Part shown: piece by piece, positions 3,763 through 16,451 of the stretch | How the letters are laid out: every line of letters begins with the position of its first letter | Numbering within the stretch: the first letter of the stretch is position 1 | Source: Acidobacteriota bacterium | GTDB taxonomy: Bacteria > Acidobacteriota > Terriglobia > Terriglobales > Acidobacteriaceae | DNA length: 64,000 bases | Assembly (NCBI GenBank): GCA_021779935.1 | Contig: JAJXZT010000048.1 | Location: 124,001 to 188,000 of the forward strand | Reading direction: 5' to 3' | The notes under the pieces: generated by a model | What the model saw: the letters and a program-made list of their open reading frames with translations, nothing else | What the model was told of the DNA's origin: nothing | Database searches by the model: none | Program-made: the position numbers and the translations under genes

Positions 3763-4433
3763 GCATATTGGGGGTGACACAGCGGACGTTGCGGAAAGAC
3801 CTTCGTTTGGAGTGGCGATCGAAAGACGCCATCAACAGCATGCTGTTCTTCGCGCTGCTGGTAGTGGTGATCTTCAGTTTTGCGTTTGACCCAACTGCAG
3901 AAGAGTCACGCCATATTGCCGGCGGGCTGATCTGGGTGGCGTTCCTGTTTGCGGCGGTAGTCGCACTGAATCAGACTTGGGCGCGCGAGCTCCGCAACCA
4001 GGTGCTGGACGCGTATCGCGTATCGCCAGCTCCGGCGACGGCGCTCTTTCTGGCGAAGGCGTTGGGTAATTTTCTGTTCGTCGTGGTACTGGAAGCCTTG
4101 ATGGCGCCGCTGTTCGTGGTTTTTTATAATCTGCGATCAGTGGGGCCTGTCTACCAACTGCTGGTAGTGGGGGCGCTGGGAACGTGGGCGCTGGTAGTGA
4201 ACGGGACTTTCTTTGCAGCGATGTCGATTCGCACGAGAAGCCGCGAGATCATGCTGCCGCTGATCCTGTTCCCGATTTCAATTCCGGCGCTGCTGGCGAT
4301 GGTGGACGCGACGACGTCGATCCTGACGGGGAGCGCTTCGCCGGCGTTCTGGATTCGGCTATTGGCAATTTATGACTTGGTATTTACCACGGTTTGCTTA
4401 TCATTGTTCGAAACGGTGCTAAACGCGGAATGA
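3759..4433 (+). CDS. ccmB: Haem exporter membrane subunit CcmB
   Basis: Polytopic ABC permease partner of CcmA with about six hydrophobic helices spread over 224 residues, the usual length for the family. The N-terminal segment with Arg-rich KDLRLEWRSKDAI, then a first helix and a WARELRNQVLD loop, is typical of CcmB. Start ATG overlaps the ccmA stop (ATGA), and its own stop overlaps the ccmC start. It lies in the cytoplasmic membrane and acts in holo-CcmE release together with CcmA, CcmC and CcmD. Confidence 0.93.
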   Translation: MSILGVTQRTLRKDLRLEWRSKDAINSMLFFALLVVVIFSFAFDPTAEESRHIAGGLIWVAFLFAAVVALNQTWARELRNQVLDAYRVSPAPATALFLAKALGNFLFVVVLEALMAPLFVVFYNLRSVGPVYQLLVVGALGTWALVVNGTFFAAMSIRTRSREIMLPLILFPISIPALLAMVDATTSILTGSASPAFWIRLLAIYDLVFTTVCLSLFETVLNAE

Positions 4434-11875: not shown

Positions 11876-11928
11876 GGAAGTATGGTGCGCCCGGAGAGAT
11901 TCGAACTCCCGACCTAATGCTCCGGAGG
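11876..11928. repeat. attL-side 53-bp direct repeat (displaced tRNA-Arg 3' half)
   Basis: Identical over 53 bp to 16368-16420. It covers, on the minus strand, the anticodon loop, 3' anticodon stem, variable loop, T arm, acceptor 3' strand, CCA and a few flanking bases. It lacks the 5' half of the tRNA, so it is not a functional gene. Confidence 0.92.
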
Positions 11929-12222
11929 ACTTGCCGCACGGAAAATCAATAACTTAGCGCAATTTGCATGGAGTGAGATACTCCAGTATTTATGCGGGCT
12001 TGGCGCGCATCGTTGTTTTCGGGGACAAGCCGGTACAAGCCTCCACCGGGCACAAAATTGGGCACAGTTGAAACACCAGTTTCCATTCTCACAATCCCAG
12101 CCTCAACGGATAAAATGGCGGGCTGTCAGGTTCTTTGGGGTGCTTTCATTCGATGCGCCTTTAGTTGTCTGGAGTCCATCACCCCTCAGGCAGTGGCTCT
12201 TGGCTACTTAGTTACCACAGGA
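11929..12222. other. Noncoding left arm of the element
   Basis: No credible gene; a plus-strand frame at 11992-12339 has no ribosome-binding site and runs into the opposite gene. It contains the GGGACAAG motif (12022-12029) and the 20-bp repeat at 12048-12067 that recur near the right end, so it probably is the attachment-site arm. Confidence 0.55.
12048..12067 (+). repeat. Candidate arm-type integrase site, left
   Basis: 20-bp sequence built from two GGGCACA units around an AT-rich centre; 19 of 20 bases match 16288-16307 on the same strand. A GGGACAAG motif lies between this site and the core repeat, as it does on the right. Interpreted as an arm-type recombinase binding site (inference). 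Confidence 0.6.
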
Positions 12223-14116: not shown

Positions 14117-14320
14117 CTAGACCACGCGAGTCCGGCGCTCTGGAGCGGGACTTTTTCCACCGTCCTCAATTACCTTGATTAATTCCGACTCGCGAATCAT
14201 CGTGCGCGAGCCAACCTTGGTTCGTTGCAAACGCCCTTGTGACAACCAAGCGTGAATCGTCCACTTGCTGATACCACCGAGCCGTCTTGCAGCTTCGTTG
14301 ACTGAAATGAGCGTGTCCAA
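14117..14320 (-). CDS. Excisionase-like MerR/HTH_17 DNA-binding protein
   Basis: A 67-residue product from a TTG at 14320 with a GAGG site 6 nt upstream; a longer version from the ATG at 14386 would add 22 residues but has no clear site. The domain reads ISVNEAARRLGGISKWTIHA, then a wing with RLQRTKVGSRTMIRESEL, the pattern of helix-turn-helix-17/AlpA/Xis proteins that bend DNA near attachment sites. It is divergent from the zinc-finger/integrase operon, with which it shares a promoter region. Likely role: excision directionality or repression of the integrase operon (inference). Confidence 0.75.
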   Translation of the reverse strand: MDTLISVNEAARRLGGISKWTIHAWLSQGRLQRTKVGSRTMIRESELIKVIEDGGKSPAPERRTRVV

Positions 14321-14377
14321 GTCCAACCTCGCATATTGATGTTGACCCAAATCGCTGCATGTGACAGTATTGCAGTG

Positions 14378-15205
14378 ATGAGACATACACAAGTCACAAA
14401 ACATGTCACAACTCCATGGAGGCTTGCCACTGTTCCCGTCCGCATCGAACTCCCGATAGGCTGGGATGGCATCGATGACCAAGATTGCTGGCGAATTGTG
14501 CAGGATCAAGACGATCTTCGTTTTGTGAGTGCTCCATTGAGCGAAGAACAAATTGCAGCGGCGCATGAAACCTTTGAGGCGAAACAACGGTGTAATGAAC
14601 TTACGGTTAAGTACGTTGACGGGCGCACTTACCTAGAAGAGTTTCTGGCAATTCGCACGCCGGAGCAGGCGGTGACATTTCTGAATAAATTCGGTGATCC
14701 CGGATTTGAGCAATACCTTGCATTCGATGTAAATGCACCTCTCCGGTTCGCGGGGATCATTCGCTTTCAGAAATTGCTCATAGAAGCGGCAACTACGCCG
14801 CTATCCGAGTGGAAATCGCTGAGACCTCCGCAGCCACCGGGTGTTGTCTTGCATACTCCACATTTTGATTATCTCCCGCCACTAGCCTGCGATGTCTCTG
14901 TGAGATATGAGGGTGAAACTGTTAGCGCGGAATTTCTAAGCACTTATGGGTACGAAATATGCTTTGCTGTCTTATTTTTCGACAAGGTGGCTGGTGTCGA
15001 ATTTAGATTGTGCGAAAGACTTGGGTGCCGAAGGCTATTTCGTGTCGAGAGCCATCACAACCGAAAATACTGTTCTGCTGACTGTGCCCACGTTGCCGCG
15101 GTCAGGGCTTGGCGTGCTCGCCAAGAGGCGCCCCGCAGTAAGGCTGCAAAGACCGGAAAAGGAAATCAACGTGATCTCCGAAGAAGAAAGAAAGGGAGAG
15201 CTTAA
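14378..15205 (+). CDS. CGNR/DUF6076-like zinc-finger protein in the integrase operon
   Basis: 275 residues. The N-terminal ~200 residues contain a helical and beta region (YLEEFLAIRTPEQAVTFLNKFG and a C-terminal 'SAEFLSTYGYEICFAVLFFD' segment), and the C-terminus holds a CxxxxC...CxxxC zinc site (Cys212, 217, 232, 236 by my count) followed by an Arg/Lys-rich tail, as in CGNR-type and DUF6076-like proteins. The ATG at 14378 is taken as start, with an ATG at 14339 possible; neither has a clear ribosome-binding site. It ends 2 nt before the integrase ATG, so both are cotranscribed. Base composition looks more AT-rich than the surrounding chromosome. Role unknown; DNA binding is plausible. Confidence 0.7.
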   Translation: MRHTQVTKHVTTPWRLATVPVRIELPIGWDGIDDQDCWRIVQDQDDLRFVSAPLSEEQIAAAHETFEAKQRCNELTVKYVDGRTYLEEFLAIRTPEQAVTFLNKFGDPGFEQYLAFDVNAPLRFAGIIRFQKLLIEAATTPLSEWKSLRPPQPPGVVLHTPHFDYLPPLACDVSVRYEGETVSAEFLSTYGYEICFAVLFFDKVAGVEFRLCERLGCRRLFRVESHHNRKYCSADCAHVAAVRAWRARQEAPRSKAAKTGKGNQRDLRRRKKGRA

Positions 15206-15207
15206 GC

Positions 15208-16440
15208 ATGTCCATCTACAAGCGCGGCGGAATCTACTGGTACAAGTTCATGTGGAACGGCGAAGTAATCCGCGAATCCACGAAGCAGGGGAATCAGAAC
15301 GTAGCGCGGAACATGGAATCCGCGCACAGGACCGCGCTGGCAAACGGGCTGGTGGGTATCCGCGAGAAGAGACAGGCTCCCACCCTCAAAGAGTTTTGTG
15401 ATGAGCGGTTCGAACCGTGGGCCAAGTCGAGTTTCCAGAAGAGCACCCCGAACAATTGGCTGTGGTTTCGTACCGGCATCCGTGCGCTGCTGGCATACAA
15501 GACGCTGGCAAGCGCGCGGCTGGACACAATCACGAACGAGCTGGCGGCGGAGTTTGCCTCTCACCGCCAGTCGGACGGGAAACAGGTGAGCACCGCGAAT
15601 AGCGCATTGCGTGTTTTGCGGCGTGCTCTGAGGCTGGCGGCGGAGTGGGGAGTGATAGACGCTATCCCGGTCATCTCCCTGCTACCTGGCGAGCGACACC
15701 GTGAACGAGTCATCAACGTGGAAGAGGAACGCGCCTATCTGGACAAGGCCCCGGAACCCCTCAAGTCGATTGCAACCGTTCTTGCCGATACCGGACTCCG
15801 CCCGGAAGAATGCTACCGGATGCGCTGGGAAGATTTGAATTGGAAGAACGGGCGGAACGGGACTCTGCTGGTGATGCACGGTAAGACGGCAGCGGCCCGG
15901 AGGCTGATTCCCATGACTCCGCGCGTGCGGTTCGTGCTGGAAACCCGCTGGGAGTTTGCCAACAAGCCCCAAGACGGCTGGGTGTGGCCCGCCCCGACTC
16001 GTAGCGGCCATGTGGAGCATTGCAGCCTCAAGAAGCAGCACGCCCGGGCCTTCCGGCTGGCCAACAAGGAAGTGAAAGAGCGGAACGAAAAGAACGGCAC
16101 GAAGGAAAAGGAACTCCGCGAGTGGGTCCTGTACTCGTTCCGGCATACGTTCCTGACGCGCCTCGGGGAGTCCGGCTGTGATGCGTGGACGCTGGCGAGG
16201 ATTGCCGGACACTCTTCCATTGCGATTTCCAGCCGCTACGTTCACCCCTCCGAAGACGCGGTTCTAAACGCCATGTCTCGGCTGGGTGGGCACAATATTG
16301 GGCACAGGGAAGAAACACGCGAAATTCCGCAGGGACAAGAACCGCCGCAACTTGTTGAGGGGACTGAGGAAGTATGGTGCGCCCGGAGAGATTCGAACTC
16401 CCGACCTAATGCTCCGGAGGCATTCGCTCTATCCAGCTGA
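15208..16440 (+). CDS. Tyrosine recombinase (integrase) of the element
   Basis: 410 residues. N-terminal arm-binding/SAM-like region, then the catalytic domain: Arg198 in TGLRPEEC, Lys in MHGKTAAARR, box II YSFRHTFLTRL (Arg312, His313; the usual first His of HxxR is Tyr), His335 in AGHSS and the nucleophile Tyr344 in SSRYVHP. It follows the zinc-finger gene by 2 nt. The reading frame continues through the right repeat into the tRNA-Arg gene, so residues 390-410 are encoded by the antisense strand of the tRNA, and the TGA stop lies beyond the repeat in chromosomal DNA. In the excised circle the frame would instead end after nine different residues. It catalyses integration and, with a directionality factor, excision. 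Confidence 0.95.
   Translation: MSIYKRGGIYWYKFMWNGEVIRESTKQGNQNVARNMESAHRTALANGLVGIREKRQAPTLKEFCDERFEPWAKSSFQKSTPNNWLWFRTGIRALLAYKTLASARLDTITNELAAEFASHRQSDGKQVSTANSALRVLRRALRLAAEWGVIDAIPVISLLPGERHRERVINVEEERAYLDKAPEPLKSIATVLADTGLRPEECYRMRWEDLNWKNGRNGTLLVMHGKTAAARRLIPMTPRVRFVLETRWEFANKPQDGWVWPAPTRSGHVEHCSLKKQHARAFRLANKEVKERNEKNGTKEKELREWVLYSFRHTFLTRLGESGCDAWTLARIAGHSSIAISSRYVHPSEDAVLNAMSRLGGHNIGHREETREIPQGQEPPQLVEGTEEVWCARRDSNSRPNAPEAFALSS
16288..16307 (+). repeat. Candidate arm-type integrase site, right
   Basis: Matches 12048-12067 at 19 of 20 positions, same orientation. It lies inside the integrase gene, 61 nt before the right core repeat; a GGGACAAG motif (16332-16339) lies between, as on the left. 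Confidence 0.6.
16368..16420. repeat. attR-side 53-bp direct repeat
   Basis: Identical to 11876-11928. The match ends at the 5' side of the anticodon loop of tRNA-Arg, so the crossover lies somewhere between the anticodon loop and the CCA end. Confidence 0.92.
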
Positions 16441-16451
16441 GCTACGGGCGC
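16375..16451 (-). tRNA. tRNA-Arg(CCG)
   Basis: Complete 77-nt cloverleaf with encoded CCA. The acceptor stem is GCGCCCG/CGGGCGC, the D stem GCTC/GAGC, the anticodon stem AATGC/GCATT with loop CTCCGGA (anticodon CCG), the T stem GGGAG/CTCTC with loop TTCGAAT, and the discriminator is A. It is the integration target of the element at 11876-16420, and the insertion leaves the tRNA intact. Its antisense strand encodes the integrase C-terminus. Confidence 0.96.

Follow-up and report, generated by a model that had tools for sequence, protein, structure and literature searches.

Does an integrase whose encoded C-terminus is predicted to change when its element leaves the chromosome carry a built-in switch, or does the protein end wherever its attachment site happens to let it end? 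The question is raised by a 4.5-kb integrative element in the window, by which we mean the whole 64,000-nucleotide stretch of Acidobacteriota DNA analysed here, in which the integrase frame runs out of the element and into the target tRNA gene. A sequence-only reading of this DNA had drawn attention to the arrangement and proposed that it could act as a state-dependent switch. Our comparisons with related integrases suggest instead that the altered tail is a side effect of attachment-site layout rather than a built-in switch.

The element is bounded by exact 53-bp direct repeats with a repeat-to-repeat spacing of 4492 bp. The left repeat (11876-11928) is a displaced tRNA-Arg 3' half and forms the attL core; the right repeat (16368-16420) forms the attR core, consists of the tRNA-Arg 3' half plus 7 bp, and lies in the integrase frame up to residue 404. 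The target gene, a tRNA-Arg(CCG) located by ARAGORN at 16375-16451 on the reverse strand, has its 3' half spanned by the right repeat, which ends in the anticodon region. Because the partner halves of relatives in other tRNA genes also end in the anticodon region, the 53-bp repeat is no chance match, and its extent is that of a tRNA-integrating element of the anticodon-loop type.

The integrase gene (15208-16440, forward strand) encodes a tyrosine integrase with a catalytic domain at residues 179-348 (PF00589, E 7.6e-18; phrog_1, E 2e-45), and its best solved relative by profile is the Int protein 6en0 (E 2.2e-23). R198, R312, H313, H335 and Y344, which we take to be the conserved Arg, His and Tyr of the catalytic domain, are invariant across 32 relatives, as expected of a tyrosine recombinase/integrase. 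Only two other genes of the element have a recognised domain. One encodes an HTH_17/excisionase-like protein (14117-14587, reverse strand, start codon unsure; PF12728, E 1.5e-08; phrog_66 excisionase, E 8.7e-07) that is likely a directionality factor and scores 28.7 bits against TIGR01764, slightly below the cut-off of 28.8; the gene lies upstream of the integrase gene on the opposite strand. The other encodes a CGNR zinc-finger protein (14336-15205) and ends 2 bases upstream of the integrase start. Relatives of the CGNR and HTH_17 proteins are present at several related loci, for example L066, L057, L048 and L016.

The integrase frame faces the 3' end of the tRNA gene, continues across the right repeat onto the antisense strand of tRNA-Arg(CCG), and is closed by a TGA (16438-16440) that lies beyond the repeat and is therefore chromosomal; the open reading frame, the ARAGORN call and the repeat match thus bear out this part of the sequence-only reading. 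Residue 404 is the last that the integrated and circular forms have in common. The integrated form has 410 residues and ends in AFALSS after that point; joining the repeats in silico gives a predicted circular form of 413 residues that ends in DLPHGKSIT, its last nine residues and TAG stop being encoded by the inner attachment arm (11929-11957, forward strand, compared with relatives below). The nine different residues proposed earlier stand, but the stop that ends them is at 11955-11957, two bases from the 11953-11955 first given. It had also been considered that another crossover might preserve the C-terminus. Three crossover points placed in the joined sequence all give the changed tail, and the same circle protein, because the change starts at the end of the repeat. 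The difference between the two forms amounts to 6 or 9 residues located about 60 residues past the catalytic tyrosine.

Related arrangements are known. In mycobacteriophage integration-dependent immunity, as outlined in the source excerpts, an att site likewise lies within a gene, and recombination there alters the product of that gene. The product is a repressor, and a degradation tag plays a part; here the gene that contains the att core is the integrase, not a repressor, and neither predicted tail ends in LAA or VAA, the pattern of an ssrA-like tag. The closest parallel is intP/intX of Myxococcus phage Mx8, which, in the available parts of three papers (PMC4701971, PMC6070905, PMC4383910), is also a tyrosine integrase whose gene contains attP toward its 3' end and which gains a new C-terminus on integration; the window integrase, with its att core inside the open reading frame and a C-terminus predicted in silico to change, has the same layout. 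In Mx8, according to the excerpted text of PMC4701971, integration exchanges a C-terminal sequence of 112 residues for one of 13 and lowers the activity of the integrase, and a review states, in the portion available, that the new 3' end of the gene modifies specificity (PMC6070905). The scale thus differs: in the phage 112 residues give way to 13 and activity drops measurably (same excerpt of PMC4701971), and in the window a predicted 6 or 9 residues after residue 404 are affected. Streptococcal ICEs in rumA resemble the window in having att inside the integrase gene and an excised form that differs in C-terminus and length (PMC4701971, excerpt), whereas their integrase is a serine enzyme and their target a protein-coding gene, not a tRNA. 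Archaeal integrases of the SSV/pTN3 type also have a gene that spans attP at a tRNA (PMC4383910 and PMC5495485, in part). Integration disrupts that gene, whereas the catalytic domain in the window is whole in both states and only the residues after 404 differ. The Islander authors, too, noted integrases extending across attP (PMC4383910, excerpt). Judged by these partial sources, the window arrangement is not a new kind: Mx8, the rumA ICEs and attP-spanning integrases were already known.

How common is read-through among the relatives of this integrase? When the proteins of 396 genomes of the phylum were searched, 29 genomes, including the window's own, had matches at E ≤1e-20, and scanning named genome contigs yielded 39 loci. 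The comparison was made on 70 integrases with the C-terminus kept, five of them distant paralogues from the window's own genome: 39 face a tRNA gene, 13 lie on the same strand as their tRNA, and 18 have no tRNA in the scanned stretch. Dropped before this count were L061 and L069 (whose contigs are those of L010 and L016), L006 (repeat only), and L005, L017 and L076 (without a C-terminal match); the tRNA of L031 was entered manually, since the stop of that integrase falls outside the range scanned. A search of IMG/VR with peptide patterns of the window integrase gave no match.

Ten of the 39 facing integrases and two of the 13 same-strand integrases read into the tRNA. The window, L038, L039 and L047, which face tRNA-Arg(CCG) at identities of at least 54%, all read through in the same frame, and so does L068 on tRNA-Arg(TCG). 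L059 (42%) stops 23 nt before its tRNA-Arg(CCG), and L040 (64%), which shares a strand with its tRNA-Arg(CCG), ends 30 nt short of that gene. L045 and L046 are near neighbours: the former reads into its own-strand tRNA and the latter ends 16 nt short. On a tree of 39 rows, each of at least 35% identity and more than 300 aa (L009, L012, L022, L050, L051 and L073 pass on identity and fail on length), facing read-through, present in 7 rows, requires 6 changes; shuffled labels require 6.5 on average, and in 194 of the 500 shuffles 6 or fewer suffice. Reading into the tRNA, as picked out by the sequence-only reading, does recur among related integrases (12 of 52 overall), but it is scattered on the tree, and to judge from these sequences read-through is a labile trait that comes and goes within the family. 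A stop beyond the crossover needs nothing special, since 132 of 195 antisense frames from 65 distinct tRNAs at the loci are open as far as the anticodon. By this count, read-through past the crossover is no commoner than chance, given no stop before the tRNA. L009, a candidate for an integrase that enters an isolated tRNA half, was rejected, as it stops well before a tRNA-Pro about 1 kb further on.

Own-strand placement, before the 5' end of the tRNA, was observed for L040, L041, L045, L046, L067, L070, L071 and L074. Because the repeat is the tRNA 5' half in L045, L067 and L074, one integrase family uses either half of the target.

What decides where the protein ends is visible in the flank between the last helix of the integrase and the tRNA. 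Many members have a GHxxGH-like landmark past that helix, and its GH codon lies 66-72 nt from the tRNA in 21 of the 22 facing members that have it. Most tRNA-facing relatives stop within this flank. All eleven members with a spacing of 70 nt stop before the tRNA, eight of them exactly 16 nt before it, and seven of these eight stops are TGA, six within a TTGA. Five members have a spacing of 69 nt: the window, L038, L039 and L047 read through, and L072 meets a TAA. In the window the 69-nt flank (16306-16374, forward strand, residues 367-389) still contains the TTGA (16355-16358), out of phase; L038 also keeps it out of phase, and L039 and L047 have lost it. A one-base difference in spacing thus shifts the end of the protein while the DNA layout stays near-fixed.

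The circular tail overlies a DNA motif of the attachment arm, AATCAAYAACTTAGC, which supplies the TAG stop. The conserved form of this motif, GAATCAAYAASTTAGC, occurs in the window with one mismatch at 11943-11958 on the forward strand. Among 21 distal halves, 8 have it at two mismatches or fewer and 10 at three or fewer, and where found it begins 8-15 bases inward of the core end. It was absent (at least 5 mismatches) from the other 11: the first copy at L042, L074, L090, L093 and the partners of L033, L031, L010, L014, L037, L020 and L035. A distal half was not found in the fetched stretches of L013, L015, L016, L019, L024 and L027, and none was identified for L039 and L068. Among the halves that carry the motif are those of L042 (Pro), L072 (Lys), L067 (Met) and L158 (Leu); the integrases of these four end ahead of the tRNA. 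A weaker copy, at 3 mismatches, is in the half of L057, whose integrase stops inside the core. The L158 and window arms agree at 22 of 29 bases as far as the circle stop, and past it at 36 of 45. L158, in genome G422, is another 4.5-kb element, in tRNA-Leu, with relatives of the window integrase, HTH_17 protein and orf167 and a similar inner arm. A count of the exact 15-mer AATCAAYAACTTAGC in 150 family genomes gave 39 copies, spread over 33 genomes, against a single copy of its reversed control; of 30 such sites fetched (L097-L126), 8 adjoin a tRNA or tRNA half, those of the window and L038 included, and 22 do not. The simplest reading of this distribution is that the motif would be a DNA site used in recombination, possibly bound by the integrase or the HTH protein. 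A search of the flank for an inverted copy of the motif gave a weak signal: 5 of 26 regions reach p ≤0.05 on the expected strand and 2 of 26 on the other, although nine of the best sites share an offset of 13-14 bp.

State-dependent C-termini are also predicted for L033, L031 and L045, and for L038 and L047 if their partners are right. The candidate partner halves of the last two lie on other contigs of their genomes and were assigned because the last 20 core bases agree. If rightly assigned, they give a circle tail of DLPHTKSTT for L038 and of DLHNEESTTYGNCDEE, with the TAG lost, for L047. Predicted tails elsewhere are DALRRRNKKKD for L033 (Asn) and LPNGKSIS for L045 (Ser); that of L031 (Pro) is dissimilar. 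L057 (Leu) reads into its tRNA and stops inside the repeat, so that its C-terminus is identical in both states. The four read-through members in which the motif occurs (the window, L038, L047 and L045) all read it in one phase, encoding [KE]S[IT][TS] in the tail endings GKSIT, TKSTT, EESTT and GKSIS, and L045 shares the phase though its tRNA is a different one and it lies at the opposite side of that gene. The motif is in that phase in 3 of 5 members that stop earlier; 4 of 4 against 3 of 5 is no difference to speak of, and fixed geometry can give such agreement; the shared phase also fits selection on the tail.

Between the window and L038, which are 81-82% identical, the integrase core has a dN of 0.10 and a dS of 1.5, and the linker (residues 367-388) a dN of 0.55 and a dS of 2.25. 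The linker thus changes at about five times the rate of the core, with dN/dS still below 1, in a comparison of only 22 codons with dS near saturation. In the tRNA-coded stretch, residues 390-404, dS is 0.10 and dN 0.03, as expected where the tRNA and not the protein is under constraint. By eye, every change between the two circle tails alters the protein. An AlphaFold2 model built with 32 family sequences has pLDDT below 50 at residues 360-410, and the family-invariant Tyr344 and a helix at 349-359 precede this region of low confidence.

We consider it quite probable that a near-fixed attachment layout, an integrase gene that abuts it and a phase free of stops together account for the arrangement, the changed tail being a tolerated by-product, probably without effect. 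The layout runs from the GH codon through about 70 nt to the tRNA 3' half as core and then, in part of the family, to an inner arm with AATCAAYAACTTAGC. In the window the flank is one base shorter, at 69 nt, and the TTGA that ends several relatives is out of phase. The frame crosses the core and takes its C-terminus and stop from whatever follows: the chromosomal 5' half of the tRNA in the integrated state and, as predicted, the inner attachment arm in the circle. The change would be tolerated, with little or no effect on recombination. Counted against this by-product reading are the shared motif phase in four of four, the recurrent read-through in the same frame (four on tRNA-Arg(CCG), one on tRNA-Arg(TCG)), the 11 of 21 distal halves that lack the motif, and the linker dN/dS below 1.

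A switch of the Mx8 kind, in which the circular form ending in DLPHGKSIT favours integration and the form ending in AFALSS is less active or less stable and so stabilises the integrated state, seems unlikely. Two forms are indeed predicted from the sequence, the modified Mx8 integrase is less active in the available text of PMC4701971, and the motif keeps one phase in all four motif-bearing read-through members. Against this, merely 6 or 9 terminal residues change, within a stretch modelled at low confidence; read-through is scattered in the family; the arm motif occurs untranslated; L057 reads into its tRNA yet ends the same way in both states; and the tail changes between the window and L038, judged by eye, all alter the protein. 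Thus the sequence-only reading was right that the encoded C-terminus is predicted to differ by state, but the state-dependent switch built on it found no support, given that read-through is labile and the motif is present without being translated; the loss of the circle stop in L047, the low-confidence tail and the fast-evolving linker before it also speak against it, and the common motif phase leaves it a small probability. We regard as very doubtful a narrower version, in which the tail tunes the integrase in some lineages, the inner-arm DNA serving both as recombination site and as fixed-phase code for a C-terminus made only in the circle, so that the enzyme would sense integration directly. 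Were the tail to have a function, Mx8-type control would gain a second well-delimited case, from an unrelated phylum. It is rather unlikely, too, that the element is a remnant left stranded and unable to excise, in which case the circular form would never occur and the question would be moot. The element has only 4.5 kb and few recognisable genes, its circle form is a prediction, and the L038 element would be larger if its other-contig partner is right, with no half within 10 kb upstream of its integrase. An uninterrupted integrase with the family-invariant positions kept, exact repeats, an excisionase-like gene and the arm motif argue against decay, as does the element of the same 4.5-kb size in tRNA-Leu of G422, with its integrase, HTH_17 and orf167 relatives. 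Thirty relatives were used to look for an unoccupied site between the same flanking genes; neither of these genes was found at any of the nine loci inspected.

A striking gene arrangement can thus arise from attachment-site geometry, with a one-base spacing deciding whether an integrase ends before or inside its target, and state-dependent protein ends should not be called switches without looking at relatives. The DNA motif and the spacing rule may be used to map this family of Acidobacteriota elements. Some relatives show further features. L042 has two displaced tRNA-Pro halves (2143-2192 and 3991-4039) upstream of one integrase, which suggests tandem or successive insertions. L069, whose contig is shared with L016, is labelled as a Bordetella parapertussis MAG, while the genome in which that shared contig also occurs belongs to the window's class; it is probably a mislabelled bin. 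In the alignment, the integrases of L014 and L016 have an N-terminal Cys-rich insertion of about 45 residues, absent from the window integrase and possibly a zinc finger.
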